Assembly (NCBI GenBank): GCA_025935735.1
Contig: JAICUS010000004.1
Span: forward strand, 1-30,488
Reading direction: 5' to 3'
Source: Solirubrobacteraceae bacterium
Lineage (GTDB): Bacteria; Actinomycetota; Thermoleophilia; Solirubrobacterales; Solirubrobacteraceae
Length of the DNA: 30,488 bases
Position 1 is the stretch's first letter. Each line of letters opens with the position of its first letter. Position numbers and translations under genes: made by a program. Under the pieces are notes generated by a model. That model did not search any database and was not told the origin of the DNA. It saw nothing but the letters and a program-made list of their open reading frames with translations. This document shows, in pieces, positions 1,098 to 17,340 of the stretch.

Positions 1098-1550
1098 TCA
1101 GGACTGCGTCCCGCCGGGCGTGCCGCCGGGCGCAGCCTGGCCGCCCGGTGCCTGCCCGGCCGGCGGCCCGCCGCCGAGGTCGCGCTGCTCGGTGCCGGTC
1201 ACCTTGAAGTCCCGGCTCACCAGCACGTGGACCTCTTGGCCGCTCGACCGGATGACGTGCACCTCATAGGAGCCGTCGGGGAGCTTCACCGCGCGCTCGA
1301 CCGTCCCCGGGTACTGCGCGGCGACGGCGGACTTCAACTTGGCCAGCGTGGCGCCGGTCACCGGCGAGAACATGCCCGGGCCACCCTGCGGCGCGCCCTG
1401 GCCGCCCGGCTGCGCGGCGGACGGCGACGAGCCGTGCCGGGCCACCGCGCTCGCGCCGAACGCGAGCACGGCCACGGCGGCGACGGCGGCGACGATCTTC
1501 AGCACGGGCGACTGCCGGGGCGCCGGCATGGACGTGTCGGAGGAGCTCAT
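1098..1550 (-). CDS. Small membrane-anchored PepSY-like domain protein
   Basis: A 150-residue protein. I chose the ATG at 1550 because it places a hydrophobic anchor directly after a short N-terminus (residues ~16-37, rich in Ala/Val). A Gly/Pro/Gln linker follows, then one compact domain (~61-120) with the PepSY pattern: PVTGATLAKLKSAVAAQYPG, then a strand ending SYEVHVIRSSGQEVHVLV and DFKVTGTEQ. The C-terminus is Gly/Pro-rich and disordered. PepSY domains often act outside the membrane as modulators or ligand-binding modules, including next to flavin or heme redox proteins. Here the domain is predicted to face outward. It is the first gene of a two-gene minus-strand unit, with the ferric-reductase-like gene starting 8 nt downstream, so the two probably work together. 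The match rests on the pattern alone, and the family is short and divergent. Confidence 0.72.
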   Translation of the reverse strand: MSSSDTSMPAPRQSPVLKIVAAVAAVAVLAFGASAVARHGSSPSAAQPGGQGAPQGGPGMFSPVTGATLAKLKSAVAAQYPGTVERAVKLPDGSYEVHVIRSSGQEVHVLVSRDFKVTGTEQRDLGGGPPAGQAPGGQAAPGGTPGGTQS

Positions 1551-1715
1551 GGCCCCACCATCGGCCACCTCCGTCAGAGCGGCTTTGGAGGAGCCTGGGA
1601 ATCGGCTGGGAACGGCCCCGGCAGTCGTCAACCGGGCTTGACGCATGCGTTTCGGGCATCTGGCCGTGGGCAGAACAGGCGGAAACCGGACCAATGCGAT
1701 GGGAGTGATTCCGCG
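1551..1715. promoter_or_regulatory. Divergent intergenic region between PepSY and repeat-protein genes
   Basis: A 165-bp spacer between two divergent units, so it should hold both promoters. It is less GC-rich than its neighbours towards the plus-strand gene. A TTGACG hexamer lies at 1638-1643, but I see no convincing -10 at standard spacing. A perfect 10-bp palindrome, ACGCATGCGT, lies at 1641-1650 and overlaps that hexamer. GGGAG at 1701-1705 is a possible ribosome binding site for the ATG at 1716. None of these is decisive. Confidence 0.35.
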
Positions 1716-2579
1716 ATGGGCAAGGAGCTCGAGCGCGTATCGATGGAGGAAGTCGAAGCAGAGGGTGCGACCCCGCTTCCGGACAAGGAAGTGATGTCGC
1801 TCCTGGACGTCAACGCGAACGTGGACCTGGGGCTTGACCTGGCCGCGCCGGTCGACCTCGCGGTCGCGGCGAACCTCAATGTCGCGGCGCCGATCGAGGC
1901 CTCCGCGGCGGCGAACCTGCTGAGCCCGGACGCCCAGGCCGTGGCGGCCGCGCAGCAGACCGGCGCGATCCACCAGGGCATCAGCGGCTCCGCGGACGCC
2001 ACGGCTCCGCAGCACGCCCAGATCGACCAGAACGCCAATCCGCCCGAGACCGGCGGCGGCACGGTGGCCGGCGGCGAGACGCCGCAGATCGCCGCGCCCA
2101 CGGCCGACGGCACCACGACCGACCCGGTCGCCGGGGCGACCGACGGTGCCACCGGCGCAGTCGATGGCGCGACCGGCACGGCCGGCGGCGTGGTCGACGG
2201 TGCGACGGGCGCCGCGGGCGGCGCGGTCGATGGCGCGACCGGTGCGGCCGGTGGCGTGGTCGACGGTGCCGGCGGGGCGGTCGACGGCGCCGCGGGCGAC
2301 GTCACCGGCGGCGTGAACTCGCTGCTGTCCGGCGGCAGCCTGCTCGACGCCAACATCAACGTCCACGCGAACGCGAACCTCACGGCGCCGATCGACGGCG
2401 CGGTGGCGGCGAACGCGAACGTCGCGGCGCCGGTCGACGCCGCCGTGGCGGCCAACATCGGGTCCGACCACGCGGTCGCCGAGGCGGTGGCCCCGCAGCA
2501 GGTCGACGTCGAGCAGACGCTCGACAACGTCGAGGCCAACGCCACGGCCACCCAGGACGCCGGCATCCATCAGCAGTAA
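1716..2579 (+). CDS. Acidic Ala/Asn-repeat protein with duplicated module, possible substrate of the adjacent M50 protein
   Basis: 287 residues from the ATG at 1716 (GGGAG 10 nt upstream). There is no signal peptide or membrane helix. The composition is extreme: no Cys, Phe, Trp or Tyr, and the only basic residues besides His are K3, R7 and K24. The N-terminus looks like a leader (acidic, with LPDKEVMSLL at 21-30). Two copies of one module follow, at residues 28-67 and 208-247. They align without gaps at an offset of 180, with about 25 of 40 identities, and each has two 14-residue units of the form AAPxDxAVAANxNV. Each copy leads into a Gln/His-rich segment ending in an IHQ or IDQ motif. A linker of VDGATGxAGG repeats (~139-197) separates them. 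The protease gene begins 20 nt downstream. I do not know the function. A secreted, structural or protease-processed protein is possible; a Cys-based modified peptide is excluded by composition. Confidence 0.75.
   Translation: MGKELERVSMEEVEAEGATPLPDKEVMSLLDVNANVDLGLDLAAPVDLAVAANLNVAAPIEASAAANLLSPDAQAVAAAQQTGAIHQGISGSADATAPQHAQIDQNANPPETGGGTVAGGETPQIAAPTADGTTTDPVAGATDGATGAVDGATGTAGGVVDGATGAAGGAVDGATGAAGGVVDGAGGAVDGAAGDVTGGVNSLLSGGSLLDANINVHANANLTAPIDGAVAANANVAAPVDAAVAANIGSDHAVAEAVAPQQVDVEQTLDNVEANATATQDAGIHQQ
2130..2306 (+). repeat. In-frame short tandem repeat encoding VDGATG(A/T)AGG(V/A)
   Basis: A degenerate tandem repeat of about 30 bp with the core gtcgacggtgcgacgggc, in frame within the repeat-protein gene. 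It encodes a flexible Gly/Ala/Asp linker between the two Ala/Asn modules. The copies differ mostly at third codon positions, so the repeat is being kept at protein level. The number of copies is likely to vary between strains by slippage (inference). Confidence 0.7.
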
Positions 2580-2599
2580 CGGCACACGCCCGGAGCCGC

Positions 2600-5068
2600 A
2601 TGAGCGCCACCCTCGATCGGCAGTCCGCCGCCGCCGCCGCACGTGCGGCGGCGGCGCCATCTTCTCCCGGCGGGGGTGGCGGGCGGGCCTCCGTCCTGGG
2701 GCGAGCGGAGGGCCTCGAGCTGCTCGGGGACGTCAGCGGCTCCGGTTACAAGGACGGCATCGCGCTCGCCCAGCGGGGCGACGGCCAGATGGTCCAGCTC
2801 GGCCCGCTGATGTACGCGGTACTCGAGGCGATCGACGGGACGCGCGACACCGAGGCCGTCGCGGCGGCGGCTTCGGAGCGGCTCGGCCGCACGCTCGGCG
2901 CCGAGCACGTGCTCAAGCTCGCGGAGAAGCTCGCCGCGCAAGGGCTGCTGCGCGGCTCCGAGGACAACGCGCCCCCGCGGCTGAACCCGCTGCTGGCGCT
3001 GCGCTGGAAGGTCCTGCTCACCGACCCGAAGGTGACGCGCCGGCTCACCGCGCCATTCAAGCCGCTGTTCCGGCCGTGGCTGATCGTCCCGGTCGTCGCC
3101 GGCTTCCTCGCCGTCTGCTGGTTCGTGCTCATCCACAAGGGCATCGCCTCCGCCACCGCGCAGGCGTTCCACAGCCCGGAGCTGCTGCTGCTCGTGCTCG
3201 GGCTGGGCATCGCCTCGGCCGCGTTCCACGAGGTCGGCCACGCGAGCGGCTGCCGCTACGGCGGCGGGCGCCCCGGCGGCATGGGCGCCGGCATCTACAT
3301 GGTCTGGCCGGCCTTCTACACCGACGTCACGGACGCCTACCGGCTGCCCCGCCGCGCGCGGCTGCGCACCGACCTGGGCGGGATCTACTTCAACGCGCTG
3401 ATCGCCGTCGCCACGCTCGGCGTGTGGCTGGCGGTGCGCGCCGACGCGCTGCTGCTGCTGATCGGCCTTCAGCTGCTCGAGATCGTCAAGAACCTCTCGC
3501 CGGTCATCCGCTCCGACGGCTATCACGTGCTGTCGGACGCCACCGGCGTGCCGGACCTCTACGCGCACATCGGCCCGACGCTGCGCCGGCTGCTGCCCTG
3601 GCGGCGGCGCGAGCCGTCCGCGCTCACCGGCCGGGCCCGCGCGCTCGTGACGGTCTGGGTGCTCGTCGTCGTCCCCGTCCTGCTGAGCATGGGCCTGAGC
3701 GCGATCCTGCTGTTCCCGAAGCTCGCGGCCAGCACGTGGGTCAGCGCCTCGCACATCGCCTCCGGCATGCCGGACCAGGCCGGCGACGGCCGGATCTTCC
3801 CGCTGCTGGCGTCCGTCGTCCGGCTGTTCGCGCTGGCGCTGCCGGTCCTCGGCACGGCGCTGATGGTCCAGCGCTTCTCGCGCTCGACGGCCACGAAGGC
3901 GGTCCGCTGGAGCGCCGGCGATCCGCGGCGCCGGGCGGTGCTCGCGCTGGCCACGGCCGGGCTGGCCGCGCTGCTGGCCTGGGCCTGGTGGCCGTCCGGC
4001 CAGTACCAGCCGGTGCGGGCGAGCGACCGCGGGACGCTGCTCAGCGCGCCGAAGCTCGTCTCCGCGCAGGTCACGCCGCCGCCGGTCGCGCAGGCGCAGG
4101 CCGCGCCCGTCGTCCTGTCGCCCGGCCGCCACCTCGCGCTGGCGCTGATCCCGCGCGGCGGCCCGACCCGCGAGCACCCGGCGATCGTGATGATCAAGGG
4201 CGGCCACGGCACCAAGCCCGCGGTCGTGGTCACCGACCGGATGCCGAGCACGACCGGCGCGCCCACGCTGCAGCCGGCGGCCACGACCACCACCAGCACC
4301 GCACCGCCGCCCGCCGCGAGCAGCCCGGTCGCCGCCACCGCGTTCCCGTTCAAGCTGCCGGCCAAGCCGGGGCCGAACGACTCGCAGGCGCTCGCCACCA
4401 ACTCGACCGACGGCGGGATCAGCTACGACGTCGTCTACTCGCTGGTCACCGTGCGCGACGGCGACGCGGTGCACGAGGAGAACTCCGCCTACGCGCTGGC
4501 GAGCTGCAAGGCCTGCACGACCGTCGCGGTGTCGTTCCAGCTCGTGCTGATCGTCGGCCAGACGGACACGATCATGCCGATCAACGTCGCCGAGGCGCTC
4601 AACTACAACTGCCCGTCCTGCGTCACGACGGCGATCGCCGACCAGATCGTGGTCACGCTGCGCGCCGCGCCGTCCGACGAGCTCGTCCGGCGGCTGACCG
4701 CCGAGCTGCAGCAGCTGGACGCGATCGACGCCCTCGGCGCCGGCGGCACGCCCGCCGCGGTGGCGGCGCAGGTGGCCGACGTCCAGCGGCAGATCGAGCA
4801 GGAGCTGCGCGACAGCGGGCTCCTCGCCGTGACGCCCACCCCCACGGCCACGGCGACGCGCACCGCGACCGCCACGGCAACGACGACGCCATCGCCGACG
4901 GGGACCGCCACGGCCACAGCCGGCGCGACAACCACGCCGAGCCCGTCCGCCACCGCCACGTCACCGCCGAGCCCCACGGCGACGGCTACGCCATCGCCCA
5001 GCGACACGCCGACGCCGAGCCCGACCGCGTCGGCGAGCGACACCGCGACCGCGACCCCAACACCCTAA
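2600..5068 (+). CDS. PqqD-like/M50 zinc metalloprotease fusion with CxxC domain and Thr/Pro-rich tail
   Basis: 822 residues from the ATG at 2600, with GGAG at 2592-2595. Domains in order: a disordered Ala/Gly start; a PqqD-like winged-helix segment (~55-118; LGPLMYAVLEAIDGTRD and a following helix pair), the fold used by RiPP recognition elements; a membrane core of about six helices (~158-465) with the M50 site H210-E-V-G-H214 and the third ligand motif SDGYH (D306). This arrangement is typical of proteins annotated as putative peptide zinc metalloproteases (YydH-like). Then come an extracytoplasmic stretch, a domain at ~600-690 with paired cysteines C636/C639 and C671/C674, a short helical segment, and a 78-residue Thr/Pro/Ala tail (~745-822) that could span or decorate the cell wall. 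It sits 20 nt after the repeat-protein gene. Inference: the PqqD-like domain recognises a partner leader and the M50 core cuts or helps export it. The TAA stop lies inside a palindromic repeat. Confidence 0.85.
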   Translation: MSATLDRQSAAAAARAAAAPSSPGGGGGRASVLGRAEGLELLGDVSGSGYKDGIALAQRGDGQMVQLGPLMYAVLEAIDGTRDTEAVAAAASERLGRTLGAEHVLKLAEKLAAQGLLRGSEDNAPPRLNPLLALRWKVLLTDPKVTRRLTAPFKPLFRPWLIVPVVAGFLAVCWFVLIHKGIASATAQAFHSPELLLLVLGLGIASAAFHEVGHASGCRYGGGRPGGMGAGIYMVWPAFYTDVTDAYRLPRRARLRTDLGGIYFNALIAVATLGVWLAVRADALLLLIGLQLLEIVKNLSPVIRSDGYHVLSDATGVPDLYAHIGPTLRRLLPWRRREPSALTGRARALVTVWVLVVVPVLLSMGLSAILLFPKLAASTWVSASHIASGMPDQAGDGRIFPLLASVVRLFALALPVLGTALMVQRFSRSTATKAVRWSAGDPRRRAVLALATAGLAALLAWAWWPSGQYQPVRASDRGTLLSAPKLVSAQVTPPPVAQAQAAPVVLSPGRHLALALIPRGGPTREHPAIVMIKGGHGTKPAVVVTDRMPSTTGAPTLQPAATTTTSTAPPPAASSPVAATAFPFKLPAKPGPNDSQALATNSTDGGISYDVVYSLVTVRDGDAVHEENSAYALASCKACTTVAVSFQLVLIVGQTDTIMPINVAEALNYNCPSCVTTAIADQIVVTLRAAPSDELVRRLTAELQQLDAIDALGAGGTPAAVAAQVADVQRQIEQELRDSGLLAVTPTPTATATRTATATATTTPSPTGTATATAGATTTPSPSATATSPPSPTATATPSPSDTPTPSPTASASDTATATPTP
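4832..5065 (+). repeat. Low-complexity Thr/Pro/Ala/Ser-coding tail
   Basis: This stretch of the M50 gene is a degenerate array of acc/acg/gcc/ccg codons encoding TPTPTAT-like and PSPT-like runs. Such tails are common on surface-exposed actinobacterial proteins and may be glycosylated or pass through the wall. No LPxTG-type sorting motif or C-terminal membrane anchor follows, so attachment would come from the upstream membrane helices. Confidence 0.65.
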
Positions 5069-5087
5069 AGGGGTCAGACCCCTTTAG
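5065..5087. repeat. GGGGTC palindrome, copy 1 (possible terminator)
   Basis: A perfect palindrome with 11-bp arms (CTAAAGGGGTC and its complement GACCCCTTTAG) around a single A at 5076. It contains the TAA stop of the M50 gene (5066-5068). It is a strong hairpin with an A-rich start and T-rich end, lying between two convergent genes, so it can act as a bidirectional terminator. The same core recurs in opposite orientation at 5099-5117, which marks it as a dispersed extragenic palindrome rather than a private terminator. Confidence 0.75.
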
Positions 5088-5098
5088 CCGGTGGAGTT

Positions 5099-5117
5099 AA
5101 AGGGGTCTGACCCCTTA
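5099..5117. repeat. GGGGTC palindrome, copy 2 (inverted relative to copy 1)
   Basis: AAAGGGGTCTGACCCCTTA, the reverse complement of copy 1 over its core, with 8-bp arms around T5108. Both copies lie within 53 bp in the convergent gap between the M50 and crotonase genes. A 9-bp direct repeat, GCCGGTGGA, occurs on either side of this copy (5087-5095 and 5128-5136). It could be a trace of insertion, or chance in GC-rich DNA. Confidence 0.7.
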
Positions 5118-5166
5118 TGTTCAGGCGGCCGGTGGAAATCGCGGCCGCCGGCGGCGCGGCGGCGGT

Positions 5167-5940
5167 TCAGCGTGCTCCGAAGCGCGGGGCGCGCTTCTCC
5201 AGGAACGCCGCTACGCCCTCGCGGCCGTCCTGCCCGTCGGCCAGCGCGGCGATCGTCCGGGCCTCCTCGGCCATCTGCTCGGCGAAGCCCCGCGTGGCCG
5301 ACTCCCGGAGGAGCCGCTTGACGGCGCCGTGCGCACGGTTCGGGCCGTCCGCCAGCCGCCGGGCGAGCGCCGCGGCCTCGGCGTCGAGCACCTCGTCGGC
5401 CACCACGCGCGTGACGAGCCCGAGCTCCCGGGCCTGCGCGGCGTCGAGGCGCTCGTTGAGCAGCATCAGCTCGGCCGCCCGGCGCGGGCCGACCAGCCGC
5501 GGGAGCGTCCAGCTCGAGCCGCCGTCGGGGGAGAAGCCGATCGCCGTGTAGGCCATCGTGAACCGGGCGGACTCGGCGGCGAGCACGATGTCGGCGGCGA
5601 TCGCCAGGCTCATGCCGCCGCCGGCCGCGGCGCCGCGCACCGCGCTGATGACCGGCGCGTCGAGCTCGGCGAGCGCCGCGAGCGCGCCGTGGAACTGGGT
5701 GGCCAGCCGCAGCACGGCGTCGCCGACGCTGGCCGCCTCGCGCATGTGGCCGAGGTCGCCGCCGACGCTGAACGCCCTGCCGGCCCCGGTCAGGATCACG
5801 GCGCCGACGTCGCTGCCGCGCAGGCCTTCGGCGGCCCGGCAGAGCGCCGTCGCCAGCTCGAGATCGAGCGCGTTGCCCACGTCCGGCCGGTTGAGCGTGA
5901 TCCGCGCGATCCGCTCGCGCACGTCGATTTCGACGCTCAT
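5167..5940 (-). CDS. Crotonase-fold enoyl-CoA hydratase/isomerase family protein, PaaG-like active site
   Basis: 257 residues from the ATG at 5940, the usual family length. The crotonase core is clear: an oxyanion-hole segment AFSVGGDL (56-63), a GAAAGGGMSLA turn (~103-113) and PRLVGPRRAAELMLL (~147-161). The two catalytic glutamates of true enoyl-CoA hydratases are absent: the GGGCE position is S111 and the QPE position is Y131. Instead there is an Asp in GFSPDGG (D139). That matches the arrangement in PaaG-type enoyl-CoA/oxepin-CoA isomerases, where one Asp does the proton transfer. So this is more likely a double-bond isomerase acting on an acyl-CoA than a hydratase. No other acyl-CoA genes are nearby, so the pathway cannot be named. 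It is transcribed towards the palindrome pair and divergently from the hydrolase at 5978. Confidence 0.85.
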   Translation of the reverse strand: MSVEIDVRERIARITLNRPDVGNALDLELATALCRAAEGLRGSDVGAVILTGAGRAFSVGGDLGHMREAASVGDAVLRLATQFHGALAALAELDAPVISAVRGAAAGGGMSLAIAADIVLAAESARFTMAYTAIGFSPDGGSSWTLPRLVGPRRAAELMLLNERLDAAQARELGLVTRVVADEVLDAEAAALARRLADGPNRAHGAVKRLLRESATRGFAEQMAEEARTIAALADGQDGREGVAAFLEKRAPRFGAR

Positions 5941-10042: not shown

Positions 10043-11013
10043 GGCAGCGGCGCGGTGGAGCCGCGTACGACCAGGCGGGGCGCGAGGCGGCGCTGCTCCG
10101 GCGCCGCCGCGTGGCCGCGGTCGATGCGGTTGCGCAGCAGCGCGACCGCCTGGGTCGCCAGCTCGCCGGCGGGCTGGGTGACGGTGGTGAGCGCGATGCG
10201 GGCGAGCGCGCCGATCGCGATGCCGTCGAAGCCGACGAGCGAGACGTCGCCCGGGACCGACACGCCCGCCGCCTCCAGCCGCTCGATCAACCCGATCGCG
10301 ATGTGGTCGGTGGCGGCGACGAGCGCGGTGGGCCCGCCCGGCGCGATCGACACGGCGTCCTCGCTGAACATCCAGCGCACGGGCAGCCCGCGGCGCTCCA
10401 AAGCGCGCTCGAACGCCTCCGCCCGGGCCCGGCGCGTGGTGGCCTCCATCGTCGGCTGGTCGACGTAGCCGATCCGCTCGTGGCCGAGCTCGGCCAGGTG
10501 GCGGACGGCCAGCTCGATCCCCGCCTGGTCGTCGACCGCCACGCAGTCGGCGTAGTCGGCCCAGCAGGACACCATCACCACCGGCACGCGGTCGGCCAGC
10601 AGCCGCGAGAGCACGGCGCGGTCGCCGGTGAAGTCGACCAGCGCGATGCCGTCCACGCGCTGCTCGAGCAGGGCGTCGATCCGCGAGGCCTCGAGCTCCG
10701 GGTGGCCGCCGGTGTTGCCCACGACCGTGGTGTAGCCGCCGGCCGACGCGGCCTCCTCGAGCCGCTTGACGAGCTCGGCGTCGAACGCGTTCGCCAGGTC
10801 CCACACCACCACGCCGATCAGGTTCGTCCGCCGCTGGACGAGGTTGCGCGCGGCCGCGTTCGGGCGGTAGCCGAGCGACTCCACCGCGGCCAGCACCCGC
10901 GAGCGGGTGTCGGCCGAGACGCCGGCGGCGCCGCGCACCACGTTCGACACGGTCGACTTCGAGACGCCGCTGGCCGCGGCGACGTCGACGATCGTCGGGC
11001 GACGGGCGGTCAT
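10015..11013 (-). CDS. LacI-family transcriptional regulator (second of a tandem pair)
   Basis: 332 residues from the ATG at 11013. The N-terminal LacI helix-turn-helix (residues 6-~50) reads PTIVDVAAASGVSKSTVSNV, then the hinge helix region GYRPNAAARNLVQRRT. The periplasmic-binding-protein-like effector domain follows, with LIGVVVWDLANAFDAELVKR and the C-terminal VPGDVSLVGFDGIAIG. The start overlaps the stop of the paralogue at 11010 by ATGA. The recognition helix is identical to that of the paralogue while the effector domain differs, so both should read the same or overlapping operators but answer to different ligands. The 3' end overlaps the convergent membrane-protein gene by 28 bp. Likely controls the adjacent sugar locus. 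Confidence 0.93.
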   Translation of the reverse strand: MTARRPTIVDVAAASGVSKSTVSNVVRGAAGVSADTRSRVLAAVESLGYRPNAAARNLVQRRTNLIGVVVWDLANAFDAELVKRLEEAASAGGYTTVVGNTGGHPELEASRIDALLEQRVDGIALVDFTGDRAVLSRLLADRVPVVMVSCWADYADCVAVDDQAGIELAVRHLAELGHERIGYVDQPTMEATTRRARAEAFERALERRGLPVRWMFSEDAVSIAPGGPTALVAATDHIAIGLIERLEAAGVSVPGDVSLVGFDGIAIGALARIALTTVTQPAGELATQAVALLRNRIDRGHAAAPEQRRLAPRLVVRGSTAPLPQPRARRRT

Positions 11014-11990
11014 CGCGACGCCGTGGAGGCCCGCACCACCAGCTCGCCCCGCAGCCGCACGCCGCGCGGCCCGTCGCCGCCGCCGGCCAGCCGCTCGCGC
11101 AGCAGCTCCAAGCCGCGGGCGATCAGCTCGCCCCGCGGCTGCGCGACCGTGGTGAGGCCGATCCGCGGGTGCGCGCCGAGGTCGGTCCCGTCGAAGCCCA
11201 CCACCGACACGTCGCCGGGCACGCGCCGCCCCGCGGACTCGAGCGCGTCGATCAGCCGCACCGCGATCAGGTCGTTGGCGGCGGCGAACGCGGTGACCCC
11301 GTCCGGCGGGCCGGCCCACGCGTCGGCGTCCAGCAGCCGCGGCGCCAGCCCGTGCGCGCGCATCGCGTCCTCGTAGCCGGCGGCGCGGGCAGCGCGCGTG
11401 CTGTCCTCCACGAGGTGGCTGCTGACGTGGGCGATCCGCTCGTGTCCCAGCGCCGCCAGGTGCTCGACCGCCGCGGCCATCCCCGCCCGGTCGTCCACCG
11501 CGACGCAGTCCGCGCGCTCCTCCCAGCAGCTCACCACCACCACGGGCACGCCGGCGGCGGCCAGCTCGTCCAGGACCGCGCCGTCGCCGCTGAACTGCAG
11601 CATCACCACGCCGCTCACCGCGCGCTCGAGCAGCATCTCCACCCGCGCGCGCTCGCGCTCCGAGCGCCCGTCGGTGTTGCAGACGATCGTCGTGTACGCC
11701 GCCTCGGAGATCCGCCGCTCGAGCAGCTTCACCAGCTCGGCGTAGAACGTGTTCGCCAGGTCGCCGAGCACGACGCCGATCGTCTGCGAGCGCCGGCGCA
11801 CGAGGTCGCGAGCGAGCGAGTTGGGCCGGTAGCCGAGCGCGTCGATCGCCTCCAGGACGCGCGAGCGTGTCTCGCCGGACACGCGGCCGGCATCCCGCAG
11901 GACGTTGGAGACGGTCGACTTCGAGACGCCGCTCAGCGCGGCCACGTCGACGATCGTCGGCCGCCCGGTCGCCCAGCGCTCAGGCGGCAT
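11010..11990 (-). CDS. LacI-family transcriptional regulator (first of a tandem pair)
   Basis: 326 residues from the ATG at 11990. The LacI helix-turn-helix (residues ~9-55) has PTIVDVAALSGVSKSTVSNV, almost the same as its downstream neighbour, and the hinge GYRPNSLARDLVRRRSQ. The effector domain has IGVVLGDLANTFYAELVKLL and a conserved VSCWEERADCVAVDD segment that also aligns with the paralogue. The start overlaps the end of the Gfo/Idh/MocA gene by 11 nt, so the dehydrogenase and both regulators form one message. The pair clearly arose by tandem duplication followed by divergence of the ligand pocket. Confidence 0.93.
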   Translation of the reverse strand: MPPERWATGRPTIVDVAALSGVSKSTVSNVLRDAGRVSGETRSRVLEAIDALGYRPNSLARDLVRRRSQTIGVVLGDLANTFYAELVKLLERRISEAAYTTIVCNTDGRSERERARVEMLLERAVSGVVMLQFSGDGAVLDELAAAGVPVVVVSCWEERADCVAVDDRAGMAAAVEHLAALGHERIAHVSSHLVEDSTRAARAAGYEDAMRAHGLAPRLLDADAWAGPPDGVTAFAAANDLIAVRLIDALESAGRRVPGDVSVVGFDGTDLGAHPRIGLTTVAQPRGELIARGLELLRERLAGGGDGPRGVRLRGELVVRASTASR

Positions 11991-13044
11991 GGGCCAACAC
12001 GATGTCGCGGCACAGCGCCACGTCGCGCAGCCCGTCCGCGCCGTCGGTGCGGGGCGCGCGGCCCTCGGCGATCGCGGCGCCGAACTCGACCAGCTCGCGC
12101 TTGAACGCCTCCTCGTAACAGATGACGTGCTCGGTCCGCCGGGACGCGACGCCGCCGGGCTCGCCCTCCTCGAAGACGAGGCGGGTGGGGTAGCTGCGCA
12201 GCAGCGGCGAGGGGAACTCGAGCGTGGCCCGGCGGTCGGGGCCGTAGAACGACCAGTCCTGGGCGTAGCGGGCGATGCCGGGCAGGTCGATCCAGGCGAA
12301 CACCGCCTCGACGTCGCCGAAGGACGCGTTGACGGTCAGGCCGGTGCCGAAGATGCGCGCGGAGCGCAGCGCCGTGGGCTCGCCCAGCAGCCCGCGCACG
12401 CCGTTGAGCTCGTGCACCATGCTGTCCAGCAGCACGGACTTGTAGGCGCGCAGGAGGTCGGGGTCGTCGCGGCCGAGCCCGGCCCGCAGGCGGCGCTCGT
12501 CGTCGGCCTGGAGCGCGGCGAGCGTCTCGGGATCCAGCGGCGTGCGCTCCGACAGGGGATGGTGCAGCGCGTAGGGCTCGATCGGCGACTCGAGCGTGGT
12601 TATGCGCGCGAACGTCATGCCGTCCAGGTGGCCGAGCAGCGCCTCGTAGGACGGGTCGTAGCGCTTCATGTAGCCGACCATCAGCACGACGCCGTTCGCC
12701 GCGGCGGCGGCGACCATCGCCTCGCCCTCCTCCACGGAGAAGCACATCGGCTTCTCCACGAAGACGTGGACGCCCGCCTCGGCGGCGGCGATCGCCACCG
12801 GCGCGTGGCTGCCCGCGGTGAGGACGAGCACCGCGTCGACGTCGCCCAGCACGTCCTGCCAGGCGGTGTGCCGGCGGGCCTCCGGGAACATCGCGCCGGC
12901 GAACTCCAGCGGGCCGGAGGCGAGGTCGCACACCGCCGTCACGGCGAAGCGGTCGCCCAGCTCGCGCAGGTGCGGCAGGTGCATCACCTGCGCCACCAGG
13001 CCGCAGCCGATCACCCCGACCCGGATTTTGGAACGGTTCACCAT
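11980..13044 (-). CDS. Gfo/Idh/MocA-family NAD(P)-dependent dehydrogenase
   Basis: 354 residues from the ATG at 13044. The Rossmann fold opens with VGVIGCGLVAQ (9-19). The signature EKP is at E97-K98-P99, the Lys being the usual catalytic or cofactor-contacting residue. The C-terminal substrate domain has D207-S-M-V-H211, matching the DxxxH catalytic pair of inositol and glucose dehydrogenases of this family. Expected reaction: NAD(P)-dependent oxidation of a hydroxyl on a sugar, glycoside or cyclitol to a ketone. It is the first gene of a minus-strand operon with two LacI regulators, divergent from the isomerase/ABC operon, so the products probably share one substrate. Confidence 0.92.
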   Translation of the reverse strand: MVNRSKIRVGVIGCGLVAQVMHLPHLRELGDRFAVTAVCDLASGPLEFAGAMFPEARRHTAWQDVLGDVDAVLVLTAGSHAPVAIAAAEAGVHVFVEKPMCFSVEEGEAMVAAAAANGVVLMVGYMKRYDPSYEALLGHLDGMTFARITTLESPIEPYALHHPLSERTPLDPETLAALQADDERRLRAGLGRDDPDLLRAYKSVLLDSMVHELNGVRGLLGEPTALRSARIFGTGLTVNASFGDVEAVFAWIDLPGIARYAQDWSFYGPDRRATLEFPSPLLRSYPTRLVFEEGEPGGVASRRTEHVICYEEAFKRELVEFGAAIAEGRAPRTDGADGLRDVALCRDIVLAHAA

Positions 13045-13129
13045 CGCGCCGACAGCCTGACGATACGAACCTTTGCCGTCAAGGGCTTGACAAGCGCAGC
13101 GTCAGCGTGGAATCGTCGCGAACCAGCGT
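13045..13129. promoter_or_regulatory. Divergent promoter region of the sugar locus with candidate LacI operator
   Basis: An 85-bp gap between the divergent dehydrogenase and isomerase operons, so both promoters and the LacI operators should be here. A palindrome GCTTGACAAGC (13085-13095, 5-bp arms) overlaps a consensus -35 TTGACA (13087-13092) for the plus strand. A good -10 is not visible at 17 bp, where gaatcg lies. LacI operators are often palindromes of this size overlapping the promoter, so a tandem LacI protein could bind here. This is position plus symmetry only. Confidence 0.4.
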
Positions 13130-14014
13130 ATGGAACCTTCCATCACGACGGTCGCGCTGCTCACTGACGCGCTGGCGGACCGCTCGCTCGGCGAGGTCGA
13201 GGCGTGGTGCGCCGCGCGCGGCATCGCGGCGCTGGAGATCGGCGTCGGCGGATACTCGCCCGCGCCGCACGTCGCCGCGCTGCCGGGAACGCTCGAGGTC
13301 GTCGCGCTCAACGCCTCCGGCAACCCGCTGCACCCCGACCCGGAGGTGGCGGCGCGCCACGACGCGGCGCTGCGGACCGCGCTCGGGCTGGCGGCCGAGC
13401 ACGGCATCTCCCGCGTGGTGGCCATGAGCGGCTGCCCCGGCGCCGGGCGTTGGCCGATCTTCGCCGGCGGCGCCTGGCTGCCGGACATGGAGCGGCTGTG
13501 GGACGAGCAGTGGCCGCAGATCGCGCGCTACTGGGAGGCGCTGTCGGCCTGGGCGCCGGCCGGCGTCGACGTCTGCCTGGAGCTGCACCCCGGCACCTCG
13601 ATCTACAACCCGGCGTCGTTCGCCCTGCTGGCCGAGGTGACCGGCGACAACGTGAAGGTCAACCTCGACCCGAGCCACTTCTGGTGGCAGGGCATCGACC
13701 CGGTGACCGCCGTGCACGCGCTGGCCGGCCGGATCGGCTTCGTGCACGGCAAGGACACGCTGATCCATCCCGAGCGCGTCGCGCTGCACGGCGTGCTCGA
13801 CTTCCGCTGGCCCGGTCCGGAGATGCCGTGGCACTTCTGCGCGGTCGGCCGCGGCCGCCCGCTGGATGAATGGCGGGCCCTGTTCGACGCGCTGGCCGAG
13901 GCCGGCTACCGCGGGCCGGTGTCGATCGAGCACGAGGATCCGGACCTCTCGCCGGAAGCGGGCATCGAGGCGTCGCTGCACGGGCTGCACGCCGCGATGA
14001 GGGCGGCCGTCTGA
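13130..14014 (+). CDS. Sugar phosphate isomerase/epimerase-like TIM-barrel protein
   Basis: 294 residues from the ATG at 13130. This is a xylose-isomerase-like TIM barrel with a full set of metal ligands in the expected strands: E151 (CLELHPG), D180 and H183 (NLDPSHFWW), H206 (FVHGKD) and E267 (SIEHED). These barrels isomerise, epimerise or eliminate from keto-sugars and inososes using one divalent metal. It begins the plus-strand sugar operon and its stop overlaps the ATPase start (TGATG at 14012-14016). With Gfo/Idh/MocA enzymes on both sides, a 3-keto-glycoside or inosose substrate is the simplest reading. It is not a close duplicate of the enzyme at 18169. Confidence 0.88.
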   Translation: MEPSITTVALLTDALADRSLGEVEAWCAARGIAALEIGVGGYSPAPHVAALPGTLEVVALNASGNPLHPDPEVAARHDAALRTALGLAAEHGISRVVAMSGCPGAGRWPIFAGGAWLPDMERLWDEQWPQIARYWEALSAWAPAGVDVCLELHPGTSIYNPASFALLAEVTGDNVKVNLDPSHFWWQGIDPVTAVHALAGRIGFVHGKDTLIHPERVALHGVLDFRWPGPEMPWHFCAVGRGRPLDEWRALFDALAEAGYRGPVSIEHEDPDLSPEAGIEASLHGLHAAMRAAV

Positions 14015-15105
14015 TGGAGGTCCGCTACGACGCCGTGGCCAAGAGCTTCGGTACGACCGAGGCGCTCGCGCCGCTCGACGTCACCGTTCCCGACGGCCGC
14101 TTCCTGGCCATGCTCGGGCCGTCGGGCTGCGGCAAGACGACCGCGCTGCGGCTGCTGGCCGGGCTCGAGCTGCCCACCTCCGGGCGGATCTTCATCGGCG
14201 AGCGCGACGTCACGCGACTGGAGCCGCGCCACCGCGACATCGCGATGGTCTTCCAGAGCTACGCGCTGTACCCGCACAAGACCGTGGCCGAGAACATCGC
14301 CTACCCGCTGCGGCTGCGGCGCTCGGGCAGCGCCGAGCGCGACGAGCGGGTGCGCAAGGTGGCCGAGCTGCTGGACATCGGGTCGCTGCTGGCCCGCCGC
14401 CCGCGCCAGCTCTCCGGCGGCCAGCGCCAGCGGGTGGCGCTCGCCCGGGCGATCATCCGCCATCCGCAGGCGTTCCTGATGGACGAGCCGCTGTCGAACC
14501 TCGACGCGCAGCTGCGCTCCCAGATGCGGGTGGAGATCAAGCGCCTGCAGCGCGAGCTCGGGGTGACGACGCTCTACGTCACCCACGACCAGATCGAGGC
14601 CATGACGATGGCCGACCTGATCGCGGTGATGCGCGCGGGCCGGCTGCAGCAGCTCGCCACGCCGGCCGAGCTCTACGCGCACCCGGCGAACCTGTTCGTG
14701 GCCCGCTTCTGCGGCTCGCCGCCGATGAACGTGCTCGACGGCGAGATCGCCGACGGCGTCTTCCGGCACGGCAGCGGCGAGCTGCCGGTGCCGGGCGTGC
14801 CCGCGCGCGGACCGGTGACGCTCGGGTTCCGGCCCGAGCACGTCGAGCTCGCGGCGCCGGGCGACGGGCTCGCCGGCGAGATCTACGTCGTCGAGCCGCT
14901 GGGCAACGAGACGCTCGTCACGGTCCGGGCGGGCGACGCGCTCGTCAACGTCCGCGCGGGCGCCGACTTCGCGCGGCCGGTGGGCGAGGCGTGCGCCCTG
15001 CGCCCACAGCCGCAGCAGGTCCACGTGTTCGACCGCGAGTCAGGCCGTCGGTACGAAGGAGGAGAGAGGGAATGGGTGACAGATTCACGCGCCGCAAGGC
15101 GATAG
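14014..15105 (+). CDS. Sugar ABC transporter ATP-binding protein (MalK/UgpC-like, with TOBE-type C-terminus)
   Basis: 363 residues. Walker A GPSGCGKTT (35-43), Q-loop Q81, signature LSGGQRQR (133-140), Walker B MDEP (D157/E158) and H-loop H191 are all intact. A C-terminal regulatory OB/TOBE-like region runs ~230-345 (VTLGFRPEHVEL and EPLGNETLV). This length and tail place it among carbohydrate uptake ATPases of the MalK/UgpC/MsmX group. Having a dedicated ATPase beside its permeases is notable, since many actinobacterial sugar permeases share one distant ATPase. The end overlaps the start of the binding-protein gene by 34 bp. Confidence 0.95.
   Translation: MEVRYDAVAKSFGTTEALAPLDVTVPDGRFLAMLGPSGCGKTTALRLLAGLELPTSGRIFIGERDVTRLEPRHRDIAMVFQSYALYPHKTVAENIAYPLRLRRSGSAERDERVRKVAELLDIGSLLARRPRQLSGGQRQRVALARAIIRHPQAFLMDEPLSNLDAQLRSQMRVEIKRLQRELGVTTLYVTHDQIEAMTMADLIAVMRAGRLQQLATPAELYAHPANLFVARFCGSPPMNVLDGEIADGVFRHGSGELPVPGVPARGPVTLGFRPEHVELAAPGDGLAGEIYVVEPLGNETLVTVRAGDALVNVRAGADFARPVGEACALRPQPQQVHVFDRESGRRYEGGEREWVTDSRAARR
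15056..15070 (+). promoter_or_regulatory. Strong ribosome binding site for the sugar-binding lipoprotein
   Basis: AAGGAGGAGAGAGGG lies directly before the ATG at 15072, inside the 3' end of the ATPase gene. It fixes the start of the binding protein at 15072 rather than an earlier in-frame codon. It also fits the need to make the binding protein in excess over the ATPase. Confidence 0.75.
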
Positions 15106-16424
15106 AGCGCGGCGCGCTCGGCGCCGCCGGCTTGTGGCTGGCCGCCTGCGGCGGCTCGTCGTCGTCGGGCGGAGGAGGCGGCGCGGGCGCGAAGAAGGCG
15201 AGCGGGTCGATCACCATCGGCTCCTTCCAGGACAACGCGATGGCGCCGTTCCGGGACACGTTCATCAAGAAGTTCCAGACCGAGACCGGCATCAAGGTCA
15301 AGTACAACGAGACCAGCTACGACGCCTGGTACCAGAACGCCAAGAACGACGGCCTCAACAAGACCGGCGCCTACGACATCTACGTCATGGACGACAACTG
15401 GGTGCCGGAGTTCGCCGCGGGCAACATCATCAAGAACCTCGACGAGATCGGCTTCAAGGCCAACTCGGACATCCTCCCGAAGGGGCTCGACCAGGGCTAC
15501 TGGCCGCCCCGCAGCGGCGCCCGGCTGAAGGACTTCGCCAACGACAAGCCGGCGCTCTATGCCGTCGTGATCATCGACGACGTCGAGATCCTCTACTACA
15601 ACAAGGACTACTTCGGCGACGCGCCCAAGACCTGGGACGACATCGCGCAGGTGGCCAAGGCCAAGGGCAAGCCGGGCAAGCTCTACGGCTGGTCGGCCCG
15701 CGGCGTGAAGGGCAACCCGATCGTCCAGACCTACCTGCCGCTGCTCAACAGCTACGGCGGCAGCTTCGTCAACGACGACTGGTCGCCCGGGTTCGCCGGC
15801 GCCGAGGGCGTGGGCGCGCTCGAGCGGCTGATGAGCTTCATCCCCTACATGCCCGCCGGCGTCGCCGAGTTCGACACCGACCAGGAGACCCAGGTCCTGC
15901 TGCAGGGCAAGTGCACCGCGCTGACCGAGTACACCGGGCTGGTCCACCAGGTCGACAACGCGTCCGCCTCCCAGGTGGCGAACAAGATCGACATGGCGGC
16001 GACGCCGTCGCAGGAGAAGAGCGGCCCGGCCATCGGCACGTTCATCTGCGGGATCGCGTCGGGCACGAAGAACCCCGACGCGGCGGTCAAGTTCCTCGAG
16101 TGGTTCACCTCCAGCGACGTCCAGAAGGACTTCGCCCGCGACGGCGGCAGCGCGGCGGTCACCGGCTCGGCGCTCACCGACCCGGAGGCGGTCAAGCAGT
16201 ACCGCTGGCTGCCCGCGATCAAGGACGCGGTGGAGAACTCGGTGCCCAAGCCCAAGACGCCGGACGAGCCGAAGTTCGAGGACATCCTCGGCACGCACCT
16301 CAACGAGGCGCTGGTCACGGCGATCCAGCAGAAGGGCGGCTACACGCAGACCGCCCAGAAGGCGCTGACCGCCGCGGCCAACGAGATCACGTCGTTCATC
16401 AAGCAGCAGGGCGGCTACGTCTAG
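15072..16424 (+). CDS. Sugar-binding lipoprotein of ABC transporter (family 1 solute-binding protein)
   Basis: 450 residues. The N-terminus has a twin-arginine pair (TRRKAIE, R7/R8), a hydrophobic stretch, and a lipobox LAAC with the modified Cys at C26, so it is probably exported by Tat and lipid-anchored outside the membrane. A Ser/Gly linker follows. The mature part has SITIGSFQDN, a typical first strand of family 1 binding proteins, and DIYVMDDNWVPEFAAGN in the ligand cleft region. It captures the substrate and hands it to the two permeases downstream. Ligand identity cannot be read from sequence; the surrounding enzymes point to a sugar, glycoside or cyclitol. Confidence 0.93.
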   Translation: MGDRFTRRKAIERGALGAAGLWLAACGGSSSSGGGGGAGAKKASGSITIGSFQDNAMAPFRDTFIKKFQTETGIKVKYNETSYDAWYQNAKNDGLNKTGAYDIYVMDDNWVPEFAAGNIIKNLDEIGFKANSDILPKGLDQGYWPPRSGARLKDFANDKPALYAVVIIDDVEILYYNKDYFGDAPKTWDDIAQVAKAKGKPGKLYGWSARGVKGNPIVQTYLPLLNSYGGSFVNDDWSPGFAGAEGVGALERLMSFIPYMPAGVAEFDTDQETQVLLQGKCTALTEYTGLVHQVDNASASQVANKIDMAATPSQEKSGPAIGTFICGIASGTKNPDAAVKFLEWFTSSDVQKDFARDGGSAAVTGSALTDPEAVKQYRWLPAIKDAVENSVPKPKTPDEPKFEDILGTHLNEALVTAIQQKGGYTQTAQKALTAAANEITSFIKQQGGYV

Positions 16425-16437
16425 TCACGCGACAGCG

Positions 16438-17340
16438 ATGCCCGCCGCCCCCCGGCGGCGGGAGCTGTGGGCGCGCCTGGTGGCGAGCCCCTGGCTGCTG
16501 CTCGCGCCCGCGGCCATCGCGCTGGCGGCGGTGGCCGCGTATCCGCTGGTGTCGGGTGTGCGGGCGAGCTTCCGCACGTACCGCTACGGGCGCGACCTCG
16601 GCTCGGCGGGCCTGGAGAACTACCGCGTGGTGTTCGGCGACCACGTGTTCTGGACGGCGCTCGGGACGACGGCCCGCTACGTGTTCTTCGCGGTGGCGAT
16701 CGAGACGCTGCTCGGGCTCGGGCTCGCGCTGCTGGTCAACGAGCAGCTGCGCTTCAGCCGCGTGTTGCGGGTCGGCCTGATCCTGCCGATGACCATCGCG
16801 CCGGTGGTCGTCGGCGTGATCTGGCGGCTGATGTACGCGTCGGACATCGGCGTGGTCAACCCGCTGTTCTCGTCGCTCGGGCTGGGGACGCCGAACGTCC
16901 TCGCGCACCCGTCGAGCGCGTTCATCGGCGTCGTCGCCGTGGACGTGTGGGAGTGGACGCCGCTGCTGTTCCTGATCATCCTCGCCGGGCTGCAGTCGCT
17001 GCCGCAGGAGCCGATCGAGGCGGCGCGAGTGGACGGCGCCGGTCCGGTGCGGGTGTTCTTCGACCACACGCTGCCGCTGCTGACGCCGGTGCTGATGGTG
17101 GCGGTGGTGCTGCGGCTGATCGACGCCATCGGCACCTTCGACCAGATCTTCGTGCTGACCAAGGGCGGCCCCGGGACCTCGACGCAGCTGATCTCCACCT
17201 ACGCCTACAACACCGCGTTCCAGTTCACCCAGTACGGGCGCGGGATGGCGATGGTGGTGGCGCTGCTGGCGATGACGCTGCTGCTCACGGTGGCGGCGAT
17301 CCGCTACATGCGCCGCGCGTCGGCGAGGACGGCGGGATGA
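16438..17340 (+). CDS. Sugar ABC transporter permease (MalF/UgpA-like)
   Basis: 300 residues from the ATG at 16438, 13 nt after the binding protein. Six membrane helices are visible, with the first at ~19-40. The ATPase-contacting EAA motif begins at E194 (EAARVDGAGPVRVFFDHTLP). The order binding protein, UgpA-like, UgpE-like is the standard CUT1 layout. Its stop overlaps the next permease start by ATGA (17337-17340), so the two are made in equal amounts and form a heterodimer. Confidence 0.94.
   Translation: MPAAPRRRELWARLVASPWLLLAPAAIALAAVAAYPLVSGVRASFRTYRYGRDLGSAGLENYRVVFGDHVFWTALGTTARYVFFAVAIETLLGLGLALLVNEQLRFSRVLRVGLILPMTIAPVVVGVIWRLMYASDIGVVNPLFSSLGLGTPNVLAHPSSAFIGVVAVDVWEWTPLLFLIILAGLQSLPQEPIEAARVDGAGPVRVFFDHTLPLLTPVLMVAVVLRLIDAIGTFDQIFVLTKGGPGTSTQLISTYAYNTAFQFTQYGRGMAMVVALLAMTLLLTVAAIRYMRRASARTAG

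Follow-up and report, generated by a model that had tools for sequence, protein, structure and literature searches.

The window analysed here is a 30,488-nucleotide stretch of contig JAICUS010000004.1 (assembly GCA_025935735.1) from a Solirubrobacteraceae bacterium. Near its start lie two genes in tandem on the forward strand, the first encoding a repeat protein (RP) with a leader-like N-terminus and two core modules, and the second a membrane protein of the M50 protease type (M50) with a winged-helix domain ahead of its membrane core and a cysteine-bearing ectodomain behind it (Table 1). This two-gene unit is carried by many soil actinobacteria, and comparison across genomes confirms that the pairing is real and beyond chance.

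Pairing of the repeat protein with the protease

To survey the pair we used a profile scan of genome contigs with the M50 alignment (A2), from which the best 80 of 199 relatives were kept, all of them actinobacterial. RP lies directly upstream of M50 on the same strand in 75 of the 78 rows scored; two further loci in which no M50 frame was scored, L016 and L075, were read separately and both carry RP, which brings the count to 77 of 80. Among the remaining three, the contig edge at L055 leaves just the end of an RP, the L080 sequence begins inside the M50 gene and allows no judgement, and L072 has no RP. At L009 the frame scored as M50 is RP itself, with the M50 start after its stop. The gap between the genes, measured at 73 loci with L009 and L077 left aside, runs from -4 to 56 nucleotides (median 11). 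Starting instead from RP, M50 was found to follow immediately, in the same orientation, in seven of seven further genomes (start genome G001 excluded), and across 19 host genomes no RP match lies away from an M50 locus, with two such loci in G006 (L025 and L054). The two genes stay adjacent in lineages ranging from Thermoleophilia to Mycobacteriaceae and Acidimicrobiia, with differing genes around them.

At least 2827 RP homologues were recovered among 7993 scored candidates. Leader residues L21, P22, K24 and E25 are invariant across 85 aligned rows. Of the 75 RPs called upstream, 72 show the leader motif, and the remaining three lie at contig ends. The two core modules are homologous to one another (hhalign E 2.5e-28), and the linker between them differs in length among homologues, which reach 506 residues; alignment A3 is without five RPs of 460-506 residues (L046, L051, L054, L059, L073), L077 and the loci with cut or unread RPs. 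The window RP has no aromatic residues and no cysteine, ends in HQQ and carries no visible export or Sec signal. Its AlphaFold2 model places strands in both modules and a helix in neither, with predicted local distance difference test (pLDDT) values of about 73-74 at residues 81-110 and 251-287 (in module 1, about 74 at 81-110 only) and below 50 in the linker region 131-204. No meaningful sequence relative was found in the PDB.

The protease is equally widespread in databases, with at least 4385 homologues among 7995 scored candidates. HExGH and DGY motifs occur in all 78 M50 proteins checked, and hydropathy resolves six segments in the membrane core, one of them wide enough for two helices. 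By its zinc site, Asp motif and multi-pass transmembrane core, the protein at 2600-5068 is predicted to be an M50 intramembrane metalloprotease. Of the M50 proteins scanned from the window, L125 and L136, the last alone gave a Pfam Peptidase_M50 match, at 25.2 bits and below the cut-off of 27.2. The N-terminus models as a winged helix of three strands and three helices, the fold of PqqD and of the recognition element (RRE) of ribosomally synthesized and post-translationally modified peptides (RiPPs); against the RRE sequence model the window M50 scores below the cut-off. Conservation in this domain is highest in the β2-β3 region (residues 54-67), and R59 and D61 are identical in all 86 rows with a residue there, from 87 aligned. 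Two CxxC motifs 25-50 residues apart were found in 77 of 78 M50 proteins, the exception being L077. These data confirm the two-gene observation of an earlier sequence-only reading, which had joined an M50 protein with a PqqD-like part to a repeat protein; its winged-helix assignment is upheld by the RRE-type fold of the model, and the adjacency that it proposed to look for across genomes was recovered from both directions.

Short precursors and the core-like repeat of the ectodomain

The RP profile also matched at least 19 of 396 genomes in a draw from the phylum Actinomycetota, with up to 7 candidates scored per genome. Eight of these have strong full-length matches, ten have matches to short frames that are mostly arranged in tandem, and G256 has one match, a weak one. 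We examined twelve contexts from eleven genomes. The short precursors (n = 23, 63-75 residues) follow the consensus LTxEELEAQxGExLPEREEMSLI-NANVAAPVNAAVAANVLSDDSVAYANAEQxxxIDQST; many of them end in ST, others in TN, LS, SI, GI or NQ. Tandem arrays hold three to four distinct short precursors, and M50 is present in 10 of the 12 contexts, being absent from the 19 kb seen of L130 and from the short contig L134. A database search with the short precursors returned at least 7997 significant matches among 7998 scored candidates. Among the 120 matches listed, all function names given by sources read 'hypothetical protein' save two labelled 'predicted peroxiredoxin' (P0242 and P0247), a label that does not suit their leader-core sequences. 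Some of twelve family matches inspected have two leader-core units, P0246 has a single leader followed by three cores with Gly-rich spacers, and L077 has three separate leader-core genes ahead of M50. The leader is common to short single-core, multi-gene and multi-core forms. Both RP modules match the short-precursor core (probability 98.6-98.9; module 1 98.6-98.7), and by sequence RP is related, as a form with two cores, to a very large precursor family whose members are mostly 63-75 residues long.

No curated Pfam or NCBIfam family was reached at its cut-off by the precursors and ectodomain proteins scanned. A Pfam match to DRY_EERY in an L129 precursor was set aside (E 0.00086, 20 vs 25 bits, in a charged tail). 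The precursors at L129 (2989-3531) and L132 (9208-9642) have two core units followed by stretches rich in Asn, Gln, Phe and Asp. The precursors at L135 (9336-9620) and L136 (7713-7982) share the leader but bear different, Cys-containing cores beside a shorter M50 that has no ectodomain, an arrangement that is, by sequence, a sister system. A likeness of these Cys-bearing precursors to chaplins, seen by eye, was set aside as an identity: a Pfam scan of eight precursors at E up to 10 listed no chaplin family, and neither did NCBIfam at that threshold.

An M50 tree of 83 rows included six of the ten array-type proteases, the four truncated at contig ends (L127, L128, L131 and L133) being left out; its midpoint root serves the drawing alone. 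A branch with 100/98 support sets apart the window together with the other 75 genome-contig rows, the window grouping with Solirubrobacter (100/90); L077 is next to join this side, and the array types lie opposite. The simplest history would be one shift, in either direction, between separate short genes and a multi-core protein.

Conservation along the cores alternates between adjacent positions. Under 2000 column shuffles per test, and with the L077 row dropped from alignment A4 (as also for the repeat comparison below), the short core gave r 0.57 at lag 2 (p 0.0005) and r -0.54 at lag 3, and the RP modules gave r 0.49 and 0.65 at lag 2; the leader showed no such pattern (lag 2 r -0.11). A period of two between conserved and variable positions is a sign of β-strands with one-sided conservation.

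The cores also resemble a part of the protease itself. The two CxxC repeats of the ectodomain match one another (probability 94; 0 of 150 shuffles as high), and repeat 2 matches the short-precursor core over 26 ungapped columns (probability 88, E 3.1e-6), a score that none of 150 column shuffles and none of 200 shuffles preserving parity attained. Both cysteines of repeat 2 align opposite Ser positions of the core. Against RP module 2, repeat 2 gave probabilities of 52 and 76 in two cuts, with 0 of 100 shuffles as high in each. The ectodomain is encoded by a separate gene in L125, L126, L127, L130 and L131, and by eye in L077 too; L127 and L131 may hold an additional fused copy, the protease there being cut by the contig end. 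The readable N-termini of the separate ectodomain genes resemble Sec signal peptides by eye, which fits a location of the ectodomain outside the membrane. Directly after the separate CxxC gene, L126 (5666-6442) and L131 (4997-5842) share a lipoprotein-like gene without a Pfam match, possibly a third component in that lineage. The L129 protease has a tail rich in Gly, Ser, Tyr and Asp where the CxxC domain would be.

Table 1. Features of the RP/M50 unit in the window and their supporting evidence
Feature	Positions	Strand	Evidence
RP, repeat protein, 287 residues: leader, two β-rich core modules and a Gly/Ala/Val/Asp/Thr linker between them	1716..2579	+	
RP leader, residues 1-30, contains ELERVSMEEVEAEGATPLPDKEVMSLL	1716..1805	+	
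RP core module 1, residues 31-107	1806..2036	+	homology to module 2 and to short-precursor core
RP variable linker, GAVDGATG-type	2037..2339	+	21/33/66-bp tandem repeats at 2125-2309
RP core module 2, residues 209-287	2340..2576	+	module 1 homology, model, short-core match
Predicted M50 intramembrane metalloprotease, 822 residues, with RRE-type domain and CxxC ectodomain	2600..5068	+	family models
M50 RRE/PqqD-like domain, residues 36-119	2705..2956	+	structure model
M50 membrane core, residues 160-464	3062..3997	+	hydropathy, six segments
M50 HEVGH zinc site	3227..3241	+	
M50 DGYH, presumably the third-ligand motif, as in other M50 proteases	3515..3526	+	
M50 ectodomain repeat 1 (CKAC), residues 623-655	4466..4564	+	
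M50 ectodomain repeat 2 (CPSC), residues 658-690	4571..4669	+	precursor-core likeness, Ser to Cys
M50 low-complexity tail, Thr/Pro/Ser/Ala	4826..5065	+	24-bp tandem repeats
Palindrome pair at the M50 stop, folding as a single long hairpin	5068..5116	+	folding -41.6 kcal/mol for 5055-5125, z -5.4

We place the RP start at ATG 1716 and the M50 start at ATG 2600. A mechanical list of open reading frames (ORFs) gives a longer alternative RP frame with a GTG start from 1227; the N-termini of several close homologues fall at or near the residue equivalent to ATG 1716. The hairpin at the M50 stop is built from two perfect palindromes of the GGGGTCWGACCCC type, no exact copy of which was found in 156 other loci compared; it is possibly a terminator or an element like the repetitive extragenic palindromes. 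No RNA family reached its gathering score in 1200-5300. Neighbour clustering found no broadly conserved neighbour gene, the widest cluster covering 11 of 75 loci, and in the array contexts only the ectodomain gene recurs beside the unit, plus two further genes in L126 and L131. Among the best 25 families for each of 10 window ORFs, we recognized no RiPP-modifying enzyme, no daptide decarboxylase, aminotransferase or methyltransferase, and no radical-SAM epimerase. Elsewhere in the window, 11010-17340 holds genes for sugar- or inositol-type ABC transport and catabolism with a LacI-type regulator, which have no relation to RP/M50.

Proposed processing and its alternatives

The sequence-only reading had interpreted the pair as a system in which the PqqD-like domain docks the start of the repeat protein for clipping or export, the product being perhaps unmodified. 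As a whole this is supported in part, by the fold, the adjacency and the leader. Its leader-like start of RP is strengthened by the short precursors, which have the same leader and differ in core number, and its suggestion that the product is unmodified is in keeping with the finding that no neighbour is broadly conserved. The absence of aromatic residues and cysteine, which it noted for the repeat protein, is true of the window RP and is not a family-defining trait; the large short-precursor family and the core likeness of the ectodomain repeat had no place in it.

We consider it reasonably probable that the two genes form a system in which a leader-bearing β-repeat protein, apparently unmodified, is processed within the membrane under guidance of the RRE and probably exported. 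In the step that we regard as most likely, the cytosolic RRE would dock the RP leader (ELEAE..LPDKEVMSLL) via its β3 edge. The M50 core would then, with somewhat less assurance but still probably, clip RP near the SLL/D-N junction and free the core modules across the membrane, a step modelled on what is supposed for epipeptide proteases. The β-pattern together with the core-like ectodomain repeat suggests that the product assembles at or close to the protease: on the outer side, the Cys repeat of the ectodomain, being like the substrate, might hold, cap or nucleate the released modules, which would associate edge to edge into β-rich surface or secreted material. Of the three steps, assembly is the most daring and has the least support, and we put it forward tentatively. 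The full chain, in which RRE-guided leader removal and export of unmodified cores is followed by templating or capping of a surface β-polymer by the Cys-repeat ectodomain, is more doubtful still; were it true, protease, exporter and nucleator would be united in one polypeptide, or divided between a protease and a separate secreted nucleator, in Actinomycetota.

Several results weigh against this proposal. The RRE fold match also covers methyltransferases and the carbamoyltransferase GdmN, and it is therefore evidence of fold, not of function. Outside the RRE the M50 model is unreliable (mean pLDDT 47.1), and six transmembrane segments would put both termini of the protease on the same side of the membrane unless the broad segment is two helices. 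The RP model is itself weak (mean pLDDT 55.5, with about 47-61 in the first halves of the modules) and has no Foldseek match. Homology between a whole RP module and the whole ectodomain was not significant (probability 5.7 and 1.7) and was rejected; because the pieces, two repeats and four RP cuts, were chosen after that failure, the repeat 2 match is post hoc. Repeat 2 matches RP module 1 weakly (probability 23 in both cuts; 0 of 100 and 1 of 100 shuffles as high), and for repeat 1 no likeness to the precursor core was detected, 106 of 150 shuffles scoring as high. The ectodomain is missing from the M50 proteins of L129 (complete), L135 and L136, and no separate one was found in those contexts. 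With respect to pairing, L072, a Mycolicibacterium M50 copy with no RP nearby, is the one clear exception; an RP-M50 fusion suspected there from an extended ORF was rejected, as the extension is not RP. Conversely, L130 has precursors and a CxxC gene with no protease within the 19 kb seen.

The most serious competing explanation is a plain RiPP-type producer, in which the cores become small secreted peptides, signalling or antibiotic-like, that do not assemble into a material. Tandem arrays of three to four distinct short precursors, with an RRE protease adjoining in most contexts, favour it, as does the fact that the closest protease family models come from peptide antibiotic systems; multi-core precursors moreover occur among RiPPs. 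Such a producer would sit uneasily with the absence of a broadly conserved modifying enzyme, transporter or immunity gene beside the unit, with cores that are strongly conserved across lineages rather than diversified, and with RP lengths of up to 506 residues, and we regard it as a minority prospect.

Since site-2 proteases have regulatory partners and the window RP lacks a visible export signal, RP might instead be an uncleaved cytosolic partner, a regulator or chaperone-like protein that binds to the RRE and governs M50, the real substrate being another membrane protein. The leader, however, is kept while the number of cores varies, whether as arrays of short units or as a multi-core chain, which fits RP as the substrate, and the outer domain of the protease bears a core-like repeat; we hold this alternative to be unlikely. 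That the pairing is functionally meaningless, a by-product of shared inheritance or of GC-rich low-complexity sequence, draws on the composition of RP, which is of just that kind, and on the plentiful mechanical ORFs of the window. It is very improbable given that RP and M50 stay together across the lineages named above while their other neighbours change, and that four leader residues never vary in 85 rows.

Comparison with known systems

A leader-core precursor adjoining an enzyme with a leader-recognition fold, a general feature of RiPP systems, is present in this system. The closest known proteases are MpaP/DapP of the daptides (NF041824, daptide_HExxH), which are likewise M50 membrane proteases with an RRE and have a partner with an acidic leader; MpaP is described as an intramembrane peptidase that cleaves off the leader in an RRE-dependent manner (PMC10036551). 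The window M50, however, scores 124.2 bits against that model (E 6.8e-36) where the cut-off is 300, and neither a daptide enzyme nor a conserved neighbour accompanies it. Its partner is a 287-residue, two-module protein without the invariant C-terminal Thr of daptide precursors, and the protease has an additional CxxC ectodomain. Similarity to the epipeptide protease EpeP/YydH is lower (41.3 bits against the LiaK/YydH model NF058609, E 1.4e-10, cut-off 225), and the window unit differs in that neither a radical-SAM epimerase nor an ABC transporter is conserved beside it. EpeP has been proposed to perform both cleavage and export (PMC10885120), and cleavage of epipeptides at the membrane with outward release is proposed (PMC7026026, PMC10885120).

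The pearlin proteins TglG/TmoG are also membrane M50 proteases acting on a ribosomal scaffold peptide, but they remove a modified C-terminal residue, and nothing similar was seen in the window system. Curli subunits CsgA/CsgB are built from Gln/Asn-bearing period-2 β-repeats, one protein being partnered by another with a related repeat. Their resemblance to the present system is one of working only, in the β-repeats and the partner with a related repeat; Pfam scans gave no curlin family, the window RP has no visible Sec signal, and no pore-type partner was seen.

No description of the RP/M50 pair was found in the open-licence literature searched. Judged by sequence, the system is related to the daptide and epipeptide proteases yet distinct from them: the protease and the RRE are of known kinds, while an unmodified-looking multi-core β-substrate and a substrate-like ectodomain repeat are absent from the families tested. 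If our reading holds, leader recognition guided by an RRE, a mechanism familiar from modified peptides, extends in common soil bacteria to an apparently unmodified and perhaps structural product, and a protease bearing the repeat of its own substrate would offer a possible tie between export and assembly.

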